Of a stretch of DNA of 51,278 bases, positions 3,924 to 19,312 are shown piece by piece (within the stretch, counting starts at the first letter, position 1; the number at the start of each line of letters is the position of its first letter). Under the pieces are notes generated by a model, which was given only the letters and a program-made list of their open reading frames with translations, was not told the DNA's origin and searched no databases. The position numbers and the translations under genes were made by a program. This DNA comes from Acidobacteriota bacterium (GTDB lineage: Bacteria; Acidobacteriota; Terriglobia; Bryobacterales; Bryobacteraceae): NCBI GenBank assembly GCA_016213775.1, contig JACQZR010000099.1, positions 1-51,278 on the forward strand, in the 5' to 3' direction.

Positions 3924-5706
3924 ACAACCACGTCAGATACAACTGGACTTCCTCGGCGACCTCCGCCGCACACATAGCTGCGGGGAACTCCGCGCCGCCG
4001 ACGCCGGCAAGAAGGCCCTGCTCATGGGCTGGGTCCACCGGCGCCGTGATCATGGAGGTGTCATCTTCATTAATCTGCGCGACCGCGAAGGCCTCACGCA
4101 GGTGGTGTTCCATGAGGACGTGGCCGCCGAAGTTCACTCCAAAGCTGAAGAGCTGCGCTCGGAATTCGTGATCGCGGTGGAGGGCACTGTGGTGCTGCGC
4201 GAAGCGGGCACCATCAATCCGAACATCCCGACGGGCGAGATTGAGATCACCGCGGAAACGGTGTGGGTACTGAACGAATGCCGGCCGATTCCGTTCACCA
4301 TCGACGAGTTCAGCGAAGTGGCCGAAGACGTTCGCCTGAAGTACCGCTACCTCGATTTGCGGCGGCCGCAGATGCAGCGCAACATTATCCTGCGCTCCAA
4401 GGTGTCGTTTGCCGTGCGTGAGTTCATGTACTCGCAGGGGTTTCACGAGATCGAAACGCCGTTCCTGACGAAGTCGACTCCGGAAGGCGCGCGCGATTTT
4501 CTCGTGCCCAGCCGCCTCAACAGCGGCATGTTCTACGCGCTGCCGCAATCGCCGCAGATCTTCAAGCAGATCCTGATGGTGAGCGGCTTTGACAAGTACT
4601 TTCAAATCGTCCGCTGCTTCCGTGACGAGGACCTGCGCGCCGACCGCCAGTACGAGTTCACACAGATCGACATCGAGATGTCGTATCCGCAGGAAGAGAC
4701 CGTGTTCGCCGTAGTGGAGGGCATGCTCAAGGGGATCTTTGATACGGCTGGGTTCCAGATAGAACTGCCGTTTCCGCGGTTGACGTATGCGCAGGCGATG
4801 CGATCCTATGGCATCGACAAACCGGATATGCGCATCCCGGCGTTCCACTGCGTGGAAGACATCTTCGCGGGGCAGGGTCTGACCACGGAAGGGCTGCCAC
4901 TGGTGGCCATCCGCATTCCGAACACCGGCGGCGCATCGCGCAAGGAGCGCGATGATCTGAAGGCCTACGGCACGGAGCGCGGGTTGCGCGTTTACGACGA
5001 TGCCAAACGGTTGGACCGCGACTTTCCCGAGTTGATGGCGAAGGTTCGCGAGCGCACCGGCGCCACTGAGAACGACCTGTTGCTGCTCTGCGGCTGGCCC
5101 GGCGAACCGAAGGGCCATCGCCCCGAAGAGACCGTGTTGCAGGCTTGCGGCCAACTGCGCCTGGAAGCCGCGCGCAAGTACGCCGACAAACACAAGCTGT
5201 TTGAGGGCAACGTCTTCAAATGGCTCTGGGTGACCGACTTCCCGATGTTTGAATGGGACGAGGAAGATCAACGCTGGGTAGCGGCGCATCACCCGTTCAC
5301 CTCCGTCATGGATTCGGACATTGACAAGTTGACGGCAGACCCGGCGCGGTGCCGGGCCAAGTCGTACGATGTGGTGCTCAACGGCACGGAACTGGGATCG
5401 GGCTCGATTCGTATTCACCGGCGCGACGTGCAGGCGAAAGTGTTTTCGGCTCTCGGACTCACGGACGAGGAAGCGCGGGCGAAGTTCGGCTTCCTGCTGG
5501 AAGCTCTGGAATTCGGGGCTCCGCCACATGGCGGCATCGCCCTCGGCCTCGATCGCCTCGTCATGCTTCTCGCCGGTGAGAAGTCGATTCGCGACGTGAT
5601 TCCGTTCCCCAAGACATCCAAGGGGACCGACCTGATGAGCGACGCTCCGAGCCCTGCTAACGAGAAAGCGCTTCGCGATCTGGGGATACAGCTCCGGCGG
5701 CAGTAA
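3907..5706 (+). CDS. aspS: Aspartyl-tRNA synthetase
   Basis: This 599-residue bacterial-type AspRS has an OB-fold anticodon-binding domain at the N-terminus (about residues 18-125, '[22 protein letters not shown]'). The class II catalytic core has '[18 protein letters not shown]' (motif 2) and '[19 protein letters not shown]' (motif 3), with the bacterial GAD insertion domain between them. It charges tRNA-Asp; whether it is discriminating or also charges tRNA-Asn cannot be decided by eye. The ATG at 3907 lies inside the 3' end of hisS, implying translational coupling. A double hairpin follows the stop. Confidence 0.96.
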
Positions 5707-5717
5707 GCCTCCGATTT

Positions 5718-5764
5718 GGCTGGCCTGGAAAGGCCAGCCGCGGCCAGGATTGGCCGCCCCACAA
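5718..5764 (+). repeat. Tandem-hairpin REP after aspS (possible terminator)
   Basis: Two consecutive perfect hairpins follow the aspS stop. The first has arms GGCTGGCC and GGCCAGCC (5718-5739). The second has arms GCGGCC and GGCCGC (5740-5757) followed by CCCACAA. The last 26 nt (5739-5764) recur exactly at 6499-6524 inside the next gene, so this is a repeat and not only a terminator. There is no T tract. Confidence 0.7.
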
Positions 5765-13339: not shown

Positions 13340-13589
13340 TGCGCGGGCCTTGCGCTTCTGACCCGGGAACCAGAGCGATCTCTCGATCCGCCGAGAGCCC
13401 CCGCGAGCACCACTGGCACACCGCATACTGTGTAGTCAGACACCACCGGCAATCGGGTGGCTTGATGAGCGATGCGGCCTCAAAGGCGGTCGGGCCGTTG
13501 GTCCGGGCGTCGCACGCTGCGCGCCTGATTCCAATGTGGATACCGCCTGCCTCTTTCGGATTTCCATGTTGTCCGGACGCTCTTCTTTC

Positions 13590-13670
13590 TCACGGAGCGC
13601 AGGGAGGTCACGGAGACAGATCAGGTTGGTTTGGCTCCGTGATCTCCGTGTCCTCCGTAAGAGATATTCT
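13590..13670. repeat. Imperfect inverted repeat within DR1
   Basis: The left part 'CTCACGGAGCGCAGGGAGG' followed by TCACGGAG can pair with 'GGCTCCGTGATCTCCGTG' followed by TCCTCCGTAAGAG, making a long imperfect stem. The same structure is present in DR2 around 15007-15080. The element resembles the non-coding 'cacggaggtcacggag' repeats common in environmental genomes. Confidence 0.6.
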
Positions 13671-13723
13671 TGCTGTTGCCTCTAGAAGACCACACAGTCC
13701 TGCCGGCCCACTACTTTAGCAAG

Positions 13724-14040: not shown

Positions 14041-14829
14041 ATGAATATTCAGCAAAAGTCTTCTGCTCTAAAACGGCGGCTGGCCGCCGGCGACACTGTC
14101 TTGGGTTGCTTTCTTTCGTTGGGTTCTTCGTTGGCGAGCGAGCTGATGGGGAACGCCGGCTACGATTGGGCGCTGGTAGATCTCGAGCACGGCGCTGGGG
14201 GTGAGACCGAAGCGTTGCACCAGATGCAGGCGCTCTCGGGGACTCCCGCAGCGGCTATCGTGCGCGTCGAGTCGAACGCCAGGCAGAGAGTGCACCGCGT
14301 GCTTGACATAGGCGCGCATGGAATCATGTTTCCGCGCATCGACAGCGCGGAGGAGGCCCTGGCTGCCGCCGCCGCGATGCACTATCCACCGCTCGGGGTT
14401 CGCGGCGTCGCATTCTCCAACCGCGCATGCGAGTACGGATCGAACTTCCGGCCGTATCTCGAAGAATCAGACAAAGCACTGCTGACGATTGTTCAGATTG
14501 AGACCCGGGCGGCTGTCGAGAACGTCGACGCCATCGCGGGCACGGCTGGAGTGGATGTGCTCTTCATCGGCCCCTCGGATCTTTCGCATTCCTACGGTGT
14601 CCTGGGCCAGTTCGATCATCCGGATTTCTGCGAGGCTATCGAGCGCACGGTGGCGGCGGCGAAACGGTACCGGAAATCGCTGGGAATCCTGCTGCCGAAA
14701 CCGGGCGACTTCGCCCGCTATCACGACCTCGGCTTCCGTTTTATTGCGTCGGGTTCCGATGCCGTGTTGCTCAATAATACTGCGCGGGCGTTGGTGAAAT
14801 CGATCCGGGAGATGTGCGTTCCTGTTTAA
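14041..14829 (+). CDS. HpcH/HpaI-family class II aldolase
   Basis: This 262-residue cytosolic aldolase belongs to the family of 4-hydroxy-2-oxoheptanedioate and 2-dehydro-3-deoxyglucarate aldolases, which cleave 2-keto-3-deoxy acids to pyruvate and an aldehyde using a divalent metal. Visible hallmarks are 'YDWALVDLEHG' (catalytic His), 'HGIMFPRIDSAEEA', the metal ligands Glu in 'VQIETR' and Asp in 'FIGPSDLSHSYG', and a C-terminal 'GFRFIASGSDAVLL'. I chose ATG 14041 over the adjacent TTG because of the spacing to GAAGGGA at 14024-14030. The gene sits between the two long direct repeats DR1 and DR2, so it may behave as a mobile or deletable cassette. The substrate is unknown. Confidence 0.9.
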   Translation: MNIQQKSSALKRRLAAGDTVLGCFLSLGSSLASELMGNAGYDWALVDLEHGAGGETEALHQMQALSGTPAAAIVRVESNARQRVHRVLDIGAHGIMFPRIDSAEEALAAAAAMHYPPLGVRGVAFSNRACEYGSNFRPYLEESDKALLTIVQIETRAAVENVDAIAGTAGVDVLFIGPSDLSHSYGVLGQFDHPDFCEAIERTVAAAKRYRKSLGILLPKPGDFARYHDLGFRFIASGSDAVLLNNTARALVKSIREMCVPV

Positions 14830-14886: not shown

Positions 14887-15156
14887 CAGACACCACCCGG
14901 CAAGCGGGTGGCTTGATGAGTGGGGCCGCCTCGAAGGCGGTCGGGCCGTTGGTCCGGGCGTCACCTGCTTCCTTCGGATTTCCACGTTGTCCGGGCGTTT
15001 TTCTTTCTCACGGAGCGCCCGGAGGTCACGGAGACAGATCAGGTTGGTTTGGCTCCGTGATCTCCGTGTCCTCCGTGAGAGATATTCTTGCTGTTGCCTT
15101 TAGAAGAAACCTTTTCGAGTCTCACGGTCGAACTTAGTGCTTACCAATTCCAGTTA
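14887..15156 (+). repeat. Long direct repeat, copy 2 (DR2)
   Basis: This is the second copy of the element at 13437-13778, in the same orientation, on the other side of the aldolase gene. It keeps the CCACCCG/CGGGTGG hairpin (start), a CCGCC/GGCGG hairpin, the CTCACGGAG...CTCCGTGATC inverted repeat, and a degenerate form of the 55-nt tail (15106-15156). It lacks the two insertions present in copy 1. Confidence 0.85.
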
Positions 15157-15297: not shown

Positions 15298-15382
15298 GTA
15301 GCCGACGTTCCTTCGAGCATCTATTACCCGAAGAGTGCAGGCCGATATGTACGTTTGGCGTACCCTCGGAGGAGAGCATTTG

Positions 15383-15607
15383 ATGATTCCATCCGCTTCC
15401 CATCCCACTTGGCGACAACTGGTTGCCGGAGAAAAGGAAGTCCGTTCTTCCAACCTGTCCTTCAACATGCTGATCTTCAACCTGAGACTCCGTTACCGCA
15501 AAGATCCGTCGCCGACAACCATGGCGAAGCTTGCGGGCGACTGCCATGCCTTCTTCGTCAAGTACGAGAAGATGCTCGAATCCGAGGCAAACGCGTTGGT
15601 GAAGTGA
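15383..15607 (+). CDS. Small protein of unknown function, first gene of sensor operon
   Basis: This 74-residue protein is predicted to be soluble and alpha-helical, with no signal peptide. I do not recognise the family. The start is ATG 15383 because a strong GGAGGAG lies at 15369-15375; a longer reading back to 15335 would overlap that site. The C-terminal half is rich in Lys/Glu and aromatic residues ('LAGDCHAFFVKYEKMLESEA'). It ends 12 nt before the FIST_C-like gene, and the histidine kinase follows without a gap, so it probably belongs to the same signalling unit. It could be a partner or regulatory subunit (inference). Confidence 0.6.
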   Translation: MIPSASHPTWRQLVAGEKEVRSSNLSFNMLIFNLRLRYRKDPSPTTMAKLAGDCHAFFVKYEKMLESEANALVK

Positions 15608-15619
15608 GGTAACCCAGTC

Positions 15620-16591
15620 ATGCTCCAGACTATTGATCGCGCCGCCGAAGCCATCGCCGCCGGAAGGCCACTTCTGCTGGCTGGTGACGAAGCAGCCTTG
15701 CGAAGGCTCCCGCGCGGGAACTGGATCGCAGGGACGATCCCCTACTTCATGGACCGGGAAGGTGGAGTGTGCTCGCGCGAACGCGTGTTCGTGACGGAGG
15801 TTTGCCAAACCTCCGGCGTTCAGATTCGCAGCTACGATGTGCAGGCCCTGCCGCGGATACTCCAGGACGCTCCGGACAATGGATTCTCCGCGCTCATCAT
15901 GCCGGCAGGCAGTCCCGTTCACACAACCTATGCACGTGATGCCGGGGATTATGAAGGCATCTTTGTGAAACCGGTGGTTGGCTGGATCGCTGGGGTACAT
16001 GTCACGGAGATCGGACAGCGCCTGCCCCAGGTGGTGAATGGTGTGACTGGTGAGTGGTGTTCCGGCGAAGCGGTGGTGATGCACGTGACATTACCGGCAG
16101 GCAAGATCGTCGAACTGGACATTGTCAATGTCTTTGAACCGGGCATGGGAGAGTCAATTTGTTTTCTCGAAACGGGGTTTGAGGCCCGCGAGTGCCTGGC
16201 GGGCGGCAAGCGGGTGAGTCTTGCGGAGTATCTGCGGTCAGTGGGAGCAGATACGCGTCTTCCGTTGACCGCGGACTACCACGGCACTGTGGTCAACGTG
16301 AGCATCCAGTCCGTGGACGATGGGTTGGACGCGGTGAGGTTCTATGCGCCGGTATTCCCAGGGATTGAGTACAAGCTCGCGTCACCGGTTCCTGATTACG
16401 TCGCGTCGTTCGAGCACGTGCTGCCTAGCAACGGAGAACCGCTGTTCGCCTGCAACTGTATTCTGAACTATCTCTATTCGGAGTTGGAAGGCAAGAAGAC
16501 CGGAGCAGTAACCGGCCCCATCACGTTTGGGGAGATTGCGCATCTTTTGCTGAACCAGACGATGGTGCGCCTGTTTGTCCGGGAGGGGTAA
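15620..16591 (+). CDS. FIST_C-like sensor protein (DUF6976-type)
   Basis: This 323-residue soluble protein has no signal peptide. Its C-terminal portion ('FACNCILNYLYSELEGKKTG', then 'GPITFGEIAHLLLNQTMVRL') closely recalls the end of FIST_C domains, which carry an N-C...G-E-I...L-N-Q-T pattern. From memory this matches the family annotated DUF6976, but that could not be searched. FIST domains are proposed small-ligand sensors that work with signalling proteins. The stop at 16589-16591 is directly followed by the GTG start of a hybrid histidine kinase, so the two are almost certainly cotranscribed and functionally linked. The ligand is unknown. The N-terminal part (1-120) contains 'GNWIAGTIPYFMDREGG', which I could not match to any family. 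Confidence 0.75.
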   Translation: MLQTIDRAAEAIAAGRPLLLAGDEAALRRLPRGNWIAGTIPYFMDREGGVCSRERVFVTEVCQTSGVQIRSYDVQALPRILQDAPDNGFSALIMPAGSPVHTTYARDAGDYEGIFVKPVVGWIAGVHVTEIGQRLPQVVNGVTGEWCSGEAVVMHVTLPAGKIVELDIVNVFEPGMGESICFLETGFEARECLAGGKRVSLAEYLRSVGADTRLPLTADYHGTVVNVSIQSVDDGLDAVRFYAPVFPGIEYKLASPVPDYVASFEHVLPSNGEPLFACNCILNYLYSELEGKKTGAVTGPITFGEIAHLLLNQTMVRLFVREG

Positions 16592-19312
16592 GTGGTACAG
16601 GTCAGCCAGGCAGATTCCATAGAGAGCCTGTGGCGCTCGACTCGATCGGGGTGCACGTTGCCCTCCGATGCCGTTTGCCAGTTGGCGGCGGTCGGCTTTG
16701 TTCAGATCTCGCCTGGATCGCGGCGTTTCCTGTCAGTGAACGCACGTGCCTGCGAGATCAGCGGCTATCCTATCGCCGAGCTTCTCACCCTGCCACCGCA
16801 GTTGCTGGTCCATCCCGAGGACCGTGATTCCATCTTCGCGCTCTACGACCGCCTGGAGCGCGGGGAGATCCCAGAGTTCTCGGCGGAGCGCAGATGGGTC
16901 CGCAAGGACGGCAAAGTGATCTGGGTGTCGGCCATCACATCGCTCGTCTCGGCACTCGACGGACGCCCGCTCTACGCACTGAGCATTATCGAGGACATCA
17001 CTTCACGGAAGGAAGCGGAGTTGGCGCTGCGTGCCAGTCAGGAGCAGTACCTGCTGATCCAGGCTGCCACTGGGGTCGCAACATGGGAATGGGAAATCGA
17101 GCGGGATCATTTTACTTGCTCGAATGACTTACTCCGGTTGTACGGCAGAAACGGCGAGCCCGGCTGGAGGACGTATGGCGGCTGGCTGGATCGGATTCAT
17201 GCTTCCGATCGGCCAACCGTGGAGACGGCGCTTCGCTCGGCACTCGATGGCGCTTGCGATTGCGACATTGAGCACCGCGTGGTGTGGCCGGACGGGAGCG
17301 TGCATTGGCTGGGATGCAAATGCAGGGTGTTTCGGAACCGGAAGGGCATAGTCTGGCGCGTGATCGGCGTAGTCCTTGACATCACCGCTCACAAGATGGC
17401 GCAGGAACAGGTGGCACGCTCCGGACAGCGCTTCAGGAGCGTGCTGGAACATTTGCCGGCCGGCGCCATCTACATGCTCGGCAGCGAGCTCCAAATCAAT
17501 CGCGCAGACGAAGTGATGCTGGGACATTCGCCCGAGGAACTTGATGCGGTCGTGCAGGTATTCGCCAGTGCGGAACAGGAGTCCGTGGCGCGCAATCGCC
17601 GCACTGCAGCCATTACGCGGAAGGATGGCAGTGAGCGAATCGTGGAGTTCAGCGGCTACACCGACGAGGATGTCCAGGTTTGGCTGCTGCACGACGTCAC
17701 AGCCCGGGAGCAGGTGAAGCTCGAGCTCGAAAAAGCGAAAGAGCTGGCGGAATCGGCCAGCCGGTCGAAAAGCGAGTTCCTGGCCAACATGAGCCACGAG
17801 ATTCGAACACCGATGAACGGCGTGCTGGGAATGACTGAGCTTCTGCTCGCGATGGAATTGGGGCCGCGGGAGCGCGAGTACGTCGGTGTGATCAAACATT
17901 CGGCGGACGCCCTCCTCACCGTGATCAATGACATCCTGGACTTCTCGAAGATCGAGGCCGGCAGGCTCGAACTCGATCCGGTTTGCTTCGATCTACGGGA
18001 AGCCGTGTTTGACGCGATCAAACCGTTGGTGCCGCGCGCCGAAGAGAAAGGTCTGGAAATGCTCTGCCGCATCGATCCGGACGCTCCACAGTACGTGGTT
18101 GGCGATCCGGTACGCTTGCGGCAGGTGTTCACGAACCTGGTGGGGAACGCCATCAAGTTCACACCTGCCGGCCACATCGAGGTGGTGGCCGGCGTCGACA
18201 GCGCAGAGGCGGACGGGTGGCGAATGAGTTTTCGTGTCTCGGACACAGGAATCGGGATACCGCCCGACAAGCAGCGCTCGATCTTCGATGCATTCACACA
18301 GGCGGACGCGTCCATCACTCGCAAGTACGGCGGCACCGGACTGGGACTTTCCATCTGTTCCCGTCTGGTTCGGATGATGGGCGGTGACCTATGGCTGGAG
18401 AGCGAGCCGGGGGTGGGGAGCATGTTCCAGTTCACTGCATGCTTCGGTGTTGCTCCAAGTAAGTCTTCCGAGCACCAACGCACCAATCTCGAGGCGCTGC
18501 GTGGCAAGCATGTGCTGGTGGTGGATGACAATGCCATCAATCGCCAGATCTTGCACGAGAACCTCGTTCACTGGGGAATGATTCCTCACCTGGCCTGCGA
18601 TGTACCCGCCGCGTTGGAGGCGATCGAGTCCGCCCGCGTCGCAAAGCAACCCTTCGCGCTGGTGATTACTGACTGCCACATGCCCGGGCAGGATGGCTTT
18701 GCCTTGGCGGAACAGATGCATGCTGACGACGGGTTGCGGGGGATTCCCGCCATCATGCTGACTTCGGGATATCCCAGCGACGAACGGTACCGCACCGATC
18801 GCCTGGCGGCACTCCTCACCAAGCCCGTGCCCGCGCAGGTACTGCTGTCCACGCTGATTGACGTCCTTCTTCCGCACGGGGAGCCCGCCGTGCCGTACGC
18901 CAGGCCGGAATCTCTGGTGCCGGCGCAATCGCGGTTGAAGGTTTTGCTGGCGGAGGACAATCACGTGAACCAGCGCGTGGGAAAAGCGCTGCTTCAGAAG
19001 CTCGGACATTCGGTGGACGTGGTGGAGAACGGACTACAGGCGTTCGATCGCGTCCAGGCTGGGGCGTACGACGTGGTTTTTATGGATGTGCAGATGCCCG
19101 AGATGGACGGGTTTGCGGCGACAAAGGCTATCCGGGCGTGGGAGATTGGTCGCGAAAAACGCGTTCCCATCATCGCGATGACAGCCCATGCAATGGTGGG
19201 CTACAAAGAGCGCTGTATCGAAGCGGGGATGGACGGCTACGTCTCGAAGCCGGTGAGCCTGGCGGGAATTGCGGAGCAGCTCGTGCACCTGGCGGCATCG
19301 CCGCAGCGTTAG
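16592..19312 (+). CDS. Hybrid sensor histidine kinase with PAS domains and two receivers
   Basis: This 906-residue soluble kinase has no transmembrane segment. In order it has PAS 1 (about 28-140, closing with 'SIIEDITSRKEAE'), PAS 2 (150-270, 'GVVLDITAHKMAQ'), a shorter PAS 3 (280-372, 'LLHDVTAREQ'), HisKA with phospho-acceptor H402 in 'NMSHEIRTPMNG', HATPase_c (N box 'FTNLVGNAIKF', 'VSDTGIGIP', 'GGTGLGLSI'), receiver 1 (D645/D646, phospho-Asp D694, K744) and receiver 2 (D832 in 'FMDVQMPEMDG', K886). Both receivers keep the essential acidic and Lys residues. No output domain is present, so a phosphorelay to a separate partner is expected. The GTG start abuts the FIST_C-like gene; that protein and the 74-aa protein are likely input partners. 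Confidence 0.92.
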   Translation: MVQVSQADSIESLWRSTRSGCTLPSDAVCQLAAVGFVQISPGSRRFLSVNARACEISGYPIAELLTLPPQLLVHPEDRDSIFALYDRLERGEIPEFSAERRWVRKDGKVIWVSAITSLVSALDGRPLYALSIIEDITSRKEAELALRASQEQYLLIQAATGVATWEWEIERDHFTCSNDLLRLYGRNGEPGWRTYGGWLDRIHASDRPTVETALRSALDGACDCDIEHRVVWPDGSVHWLGCKCRVFRNRKGIVWRVIGVVLDITAHKMAQEQVARSGQRFRSVLEHLPAGAIYMLGSELQINRADEVMLGHSPEELDAVVQVFASAEQESVARNRRTAAITRKDGSERIVEFSGYTDEDVQVWLLHDVTAREQVKLELEKAKELAESASRSKSEFLANMSHEIRTPMNGVLGMTELLLAMELGPREREYVGVIKHSADALLTVINDILDFSKIEAGRLELDPVCFDLREAVFDAIKPLVPRAEEKGLEMLCRIDPDAPQYVVGDPVRLRQVFTNLVGNAIKFTPAGHIEVVAGVDSAEADGWRMSFRVSDTGIGIPPDKQRSIFDAFTQADASITRKYGGTGLGLSICSRLVRMMGGDLWLESEPGVGSMFQFTACFGVAPSKSSEHQRTNLEALRGKHVLVVDDNAINRQILHENLVHWGMIPHLACDVPAALEAIESARVAKQPFALVITDCHMPGQDGFALAEQMHADDGLRGIPAIMLTSGYPSDERYRTDRLAALLTKPVPAQVLLSTLIDVLLPHGEPAVPYARPESLVPAQSRLKVLLAEDNHVNQRVGKALLQKLGHSVDVVENGLQAFDRVQAGAYDVVFMDVQMPEMDGFAATKAIRAWEIGREKRVPIIAMTAHAMVGYKERCIEAGMDGYVSKPVSLAGIAEQLVHLAASPQR

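Follow-up and report, generated by a model that had tools for sequence, protein, structure and literature searches.

A dom74–DUF6976 gene pair upstream of a soluble hybrid histidine kinase gene in an Acidobacteriota genome

Contig JACQZR010000099.1 of the Acidobacteriota assembly GCA_016213775.1 (Bryobacteraceae; draft genome of 10.96 Mb), analysed here over positions 1 to 51,278 (in nucleotides, nt) and hereafter called the window, carries three genes in series on the + strand. They code for a protein of 74 amino acids (aa) belonging to a family that we call dom74 (P0001), a member of the Pfam family DUF6976 (P0002) and a soluble hybrid histidine kinase (P0003). The conserved unit of this locus is the dom74–DUF6976 pair and not the three-gene set: the association of the first two genes exceeds chance, and the kinase is one of several partners of the pair. 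By sequence comparison, the 74-aa protein represents a real family tied to DUF6976, and modelling predicts DUF6976 to be a divergent protein of the FIST fold. A sequence-only reading of the same DNA had grouped the three genes as one operon and one signalling module; its coordinates, reading frames and gaps of 12 and 0 nt proved correct on recheck. The features concerned are the following.

15383..15607, + strand: dom74 gene (P0001), 74 aa; open reading frame (ORF) call, upstream partner of DUF6976 by profile
15620..16591, + strand: DUF6976 gene (P0002, PF22396), 323 aa, with predicted FIST fold and CNC motif at residues 278–280; profile and predicted fold
16592..19312, + strand: soluble hybrid histidine kinase gene (P0003), 906 aa, GTG start; domain scan and ORF
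15368..15374, + strand: GGAGGAG, Shine-Dalgarno-like, of the 74-aa gene; sequence
16581..16588, + strand: GGGAGGGG, Shine-Dalgarno-like, belonging to the kinase gene and lying within the 3' end of the DUF6976 gene; sequence

Pairing of dom74 with DUF6976

The dom74 profile was seeded with the 74-aa protein of the window and built from loci carrying DUF6976. With window slices and one duplicate included, 65 of 68 loci have dom74 in front of DUF6976; outside the window, 61 of 62 do (L003, L004, L006, L007 and L009–L066, L039 entering the count as a fused gene). Excluded from these 62 are the window slices (L001, L002, L008), L005, which is the same DNA as L011, and two small DUF6976 fragments without dom74 (L067, L068); kept among them are three imperfect genes, namely L052 (DUF6976 truncated where the contig ends), L055 (no match over the first 45 residues) and L065 (DUF6976 in two frames). 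The single exception, L022 of Thiomargarita, has no dom74, and its upstream gene (4438–5745), about 255 nt from DUF6976, reads from its sequence, not from a database match, as a Ser/Thr protein kinase. The distance from the dom74 stop to the start of DUF6976 homology is less than 70 nt, except in L014 (72 nt), L032 (129 nt) and L053 (255 nt) and in the fused L039.

Across 698 whole genomes, dom74 and DUF6976 matches with strong E-values fell in the identical 15 genomes; dom74 is present in 11 of these by construction of the profile and was found anew in G491, G501, G571 (two loci) and G624. DUF6976 was carried by 5 of 396 sampled Acidobacteriota genomes, by 7 of the 52 from the family to which a Synergistaceae carrier belongs and by 3 of the 250 from the order that includes a Denitromonas carrier. 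Five weak partial dom74 matches in long frames (E 0.004–0.008) were set aside as chance; if they are counted, the Acidobacteriota tally becomes 10/396. G571 holds two dom74 and two DUF6976, and in its second copy (L104:6413-8487) DUF6976 occupies residues 219–540 of an open frame of 541 aa, which overlaps another long frame containing dom74. Nine carrier genomes, including two of the 15, were traced from loci, and each of them contained exactly one dom74. When the 74-aa protein was used as a single-sequence query against 60 relatives, only G044, from the same order, responded, and there too the match precedes DUF6976. Pairwise distances within the two families correlate at 0.65 (56 loci). No dom74 was found in any of 33 canonical FIST loci, which span 3.6 kb or less and are in some cases truncated by contig ends; the only dom74 matches in that scan came from L029 and L035, which also carry DUF6976. 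The suspicion that an extra small protein accompanies the FIST-like one is therefore borne out as a conserved pair, by the 61 of 62 loci and by co-occurrence in the 15 genomes.

The pair is found in Acidobacteriaceae, Holophagales, several proteobacterial groups, Spirochaetes, Chloroflexi, Bacillota, Synergistaceae, Myxococcales, Bdellovibrionaceae, Chitinispirillales and others. Its distribution within these groups is patchy, which suggests horizontal spread.

The fold of DUF6976 and the contexts of dom74

P0002 is a full-length member of PF22396, which Pfam lists as a family of unknown function: residues 4–320 of 323 match with an E-value of 8.7e-133 and 442.5 bits, against a cut-off of 27. 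The Pfam families FIST (PF08495) and FIST_C (PF10442) gave no match to it up to E 1, PF08495 matched nowhere in the genome of the window, and the DUF6976 profile retrieved nothing from PDB sequences up to E 1. Profile-to-profile comparison of DUF6976 with FIST by hhalign gave a probability of 78% and an E-value of 1.7e-5 in one comparison, over the C-terminal 131 columns only. The C-terminal third of DUF6976 aligns with FIST_C with the GEI and NQT motifs in register, and the second cysteine of the near-invariant CNC motif falls on the FIST cysteine, in agreement with the claim that the middle protein ends like FIST_C. The predicted fold of DUF6976 is that of FIST and not an unrelated one, as the FIST domain of FBXO22, a eukaryotic F-box protein with a ubiquitin ligase context, ranked clearly above enzymes in the fold comparison at 9% identity. 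Heme, nitric oxide (NO) or redox sensing by DUF6976 is possible, and the CNC motif would be the obvious candidate site for it.

The 74-aa protein had been called unrecognised, and so it is: scans of P0001 against Pfam and NCBIfam up to E 1, and against PADLOC, gave nothing. The dom74 family as a whole has no consistent match in Pfam (the best is ING, matched by 4 of 72 rows at E 0.0017) and weak ones among PDB sequences (best E 0.027). Its fold is predicted from the fusion in L039 (Myxococcales), where dom74 and DUF6976 share a single ORF; the AlphaFold2 (AF2) model of this fusion (predicted local distance difference test score 94.6, predicted template modelling score 0.85) renders dom74 as four helices, and a search with it against a viral fold library returned nothing below 0.001. 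The metagenome-assembled genome (MAG) of L039, VK_bin-1538, also contains a partial DUF6976 without dom74 (L067:2381-2704), which looks like a remnant.

Fusions of dom74 to other domains recur. It forms the C-terminal domain behind a Cro/C1-type helix-turn-helix (HTH) in L059 and, in L054 (Treponema), that of a hemerythrin protein. A single dom74 copy stands behind an N-terminal domain laid out like the ISL3 transposase N-terminus in Rhodocyclales and further betaproteobacterial loci; Bermanella, Oleispira and one further gammaproteobacterial locus have three tandem copies behind the same ISL3-like domain. The likeness of this domain to ISL3 is weak as judged from sequence. Among its 14 members, Zn_ribbon_ISL3 matched two (best E 0.012) and HTH_Tnp_ISL3 one (E 0.093), both weakly. 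A first hhalign comparison, with a poor ISL3 set, gave E-values of 0.031 and 0.19; in a second, one set gave 0.14 and 0.39, and the other six runs gave 0.002–0.008. For the one set tested, the score of 22.7 exceeded the maximum of 18.2 reached in 30 column shuffles, and the single alignment inspected, with L153 and L160, is in register. The Chloroflexi MAG fen_1053 harbours the pair twice, once with a stand-alone dom74 (L015) and once with the HTH-fused form (L059).

The kinase and other neighbours of the pair

P0003 is a hybrid histidine kinase by its Pfam domains (HisKA, HATPase_c and two receivers), both receivers keeping the acidic pair, Asp, Thr and Lys. It had been described as a soluble three-PAS kinase with two intact receivers and no output domain, a picture that needs one correction. 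Pfam gives two PAS domains, at about residues 30–137 and 175–266, and the third region (269–393), scanned alone, matched no PAS family up to E 0.01. The remainder of the description agrees with our results: neither Hpt nor any other output or effector domain was found by Pfam, and no segment reaches the hydrophobicity of a usual membrane helix (maximum 19-residue Kyte-Doolittle mean of 1.49). The NCBIfam NahK/ErcS model (near_NosP_CTERM) scores P0003 at 181.4 bits, far short of its cut-off of 400. A role in anti-phage defence was considered and found unsupported, the PADLOC match being limited to the second receiver of P0003.

The 74-aa gene has the strong Shine-Dalgarno sequence attributed to it, GGAGGAG, 8 nt before its first ATG. 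The GTG of the kinase gene directly follows the DUF6976 stop, with GGGAGGGG just upstream. No sigma-70 promoter was found between 14700 and 19700 by a scan that is uninformative for the host phylum. Just upstream of the operon, an HpcH/HpaI aldolase gene (14041-14829) is bracketed by two direct repeats within 13446-13689 and 14897-15107 (73 nt at 88% identity and 144 nt at 93%), which may represent a repeat element or the scar of a duplication.

Of the 61 genes that lie on the same strand within 200 nt of the pair, 9 carry kinase or receiver domains, compared with 16 among the remaining 437 genes of these loci (Fisher p 0.0015). This in-house scan takes in the window and related Synergistaceae loci, leaves out L065, L067, L068 and repeats of the same record, and misses kinases that Pfam shows in L048 and in L041 (cut by the contig end). 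In L101, from the Synergistaceae family, dom74, DUF6976 and an 899-aa hybrid kinase follow one another in the order of the window. L054 combines the hemerythrin-dom74 protein, DUF6976 and two kinases; L009 (Spirochaetaceae) a methyl-accepting chemotaxis protein (MCP), CheW, dom74, DUF6976 and a REC-PAS-PAS-HisKA_2 protein; and L048 (Anaerolineaceae) has a GAF-GAF-HisKA_3 kinase after DUF6976. A REC-HD_5 protein follows DUF6976 in L038. In L029, a FIST gene recognised by Pfam, a hybrid kinase, dom74 and DUF6976 stand in this order, and gene sizes and kinase matches point to the same arrangement in L035, where the first gene is a putative FIST gene.

Other observations weigh against a general coupling of the pair to kinases. 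No kinase or receiver was detected beside it in five other Acidobacteriota (L092–L096), nor next to it in 58 of 67 loci by the in-house scan; 25 of the 67 loci have no close same-strand neighbour, and some pairs adjoin transporters or metabolic genes. Because of the first two absences, the kinase is regarded as one of several partners, and its status as an obligate part of the module was rejected. The proposed three-gene module survives in part: the enrichment and the orders in L101, L054, L009 and L048 favour the link to a kinase, and the loci without a detected one speak against its constancy. As a separate matter, concerning L050 and L056, a record titled Arthrobacter sp. TPD3018 has a downstream gene that matches one in Sphingomonas aquatilis in size and place; in L050 this gene is Nramp by Pfam, and the record name may be wrong.

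A possible sensor cassette and its relation to known systems

We give roughly even chances to the view that the pair works in the cytosol as a sensor cassette of two proteins, dom74 and DUF6976, in which the small helical protein passes the state of its partner to an output, here P0003. DUF6976 would bind a small molecule or cofactor, possibly through the CNC motif; dom74 would dock on it as an adaptor and relay its state. In the genome of the window, the pair would then raise or lower the autophosphorylation of P0003, whose receivers would feed an unlinked Hpt and response regulator. In other genomes, dom74 fused to a DNA-binding or other domain, or chemotaxis or HD-type genes beside the pair, could take the place of the kinase. 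The genes, their pairing and the fusions are observed and the fold is predicted, whereas we infer the physical complex, the ligand, the direction of signalling and the control of the kinase. The sensor role of DUF6976 is suggested by analogy with NosP-NosK and VpsV-VpsS, and dom74 is read as an adaptor because it is near-obligate, can be fused to DUF6976 and is itself fused to DNA-binding and hemerythrin domains. A more tentative extension, to which we lend rather less credence, is that dom74 serves FIST-fold sensors as a portable transmitter: it would sense the state of DUF6976 and, through its gene position or through fusion, pass it to phosphorelays, chemotaxis, HD-type effectors or straight to DNA-binding proteins.

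Other explanations have to be weighed against the sensor cassette. Strict pairing and fusion would suit a subunit or chaperone equally well, and the absence of dom74 from 33 canonical FIST loci (up to 3.6 kb) also accords with dom74 being a folding, stability or cofactor-loading partner without a signalling role, DUF6976 alone signalling to the kinase in the manner of NosP. However, three tandem dom74 copies and a C-terminal dom74 on DNA-binding and hemerythrin proteins suit an adaptor better, and we consider the chaperone role unlikely. DUF6976 might instead be an enzyme of the chorismatase or cyclic amide hydrolase fold type, with dom74 as its small subunit or activator and the kinase as a mere neighbour; this too we hold to be improbable, given the rank of FBXO22 above enzymes, the enrichment of signalling genes around the pair and the fact that the fused dom74 proteins scanned have HTH, hemerythrin, or nothing that Pfam knows.

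A narrower objection concerns the kinase alone, which could be a chance neighbour in the window, the pair acting elsewhere in that genome. The loci described above without a detected kinase, including those of the five other Acidobacteriota, fit such a view; on the other hand, the 0-nt junction, the strong ribosome site within the DUF6976 gene, the same three-gene order in L101 and the comparable orders in L009, L048 and L054 make it a rather poor prospect.

The sensor cassette finds its closest parallels in systems where a stand-alone FIST protein acts on a soluble kinase. NosP binds and regulates the adjacent soluble kinase, NosK being inhibited, and more so with an NO donor, according to PMC12570481. 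VpsV with the cytoplasmic hybrid kinase VpsS has been proposed as a further case (PMC4398556), and a review reports inhibition of VpsS by NosP with NO (PMC8738867). How FIST-FIST_C domains bind ligands and pass signals is described as little known in another review (PMC8846402). Like NosP-NosK(-NosR) and NosP-NahK (PMC12570481, PMC8846402), the window has a gene for a stand-alone FIST-fold sensor beside a cytosolic kinase gene, here with a 0-nt junction. It differs in that its sensor is missed by Pfam FIST and FIST_C and in its extra, near-obligate dom74 gene; unlike NahK, its kinase reaches 181 of 400 bits on the NahK/ErcS model. VpsV-VpsS of Vibrio cholerae likewise has a FIST-fold gene that precedes the gene for a hybrid kinase free of membrane segments, whereas VpsV has a recognised FIST domain and no small partner is named in the available part of PMC4398556, the V. 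cholerae genome not having been searched for dom74.

The name DUF6976 was not found in a search of 5.39 million papers, largely without subscription papers, and dom74 has no searchable name. A FIST protein with a soluble kinase is already known; the DUF6976–dom74 pair as a widespread cassette seems undescribed. PF22396 gains a hypothesis of function, and dom74, unrecognised by Pfam and NCBIfam in the window protein, is defined as a family. Should the portable-transmitter view be true, a sensor-adaptor cassette would turn one ligand into different outputs across phyla, a kind not met in the literature examined. A family of the same fold with a near-obligate small partner, and with natural fusions of that partner to DNA-binding and other domains, offers a direct route to the docking surface and the output path.
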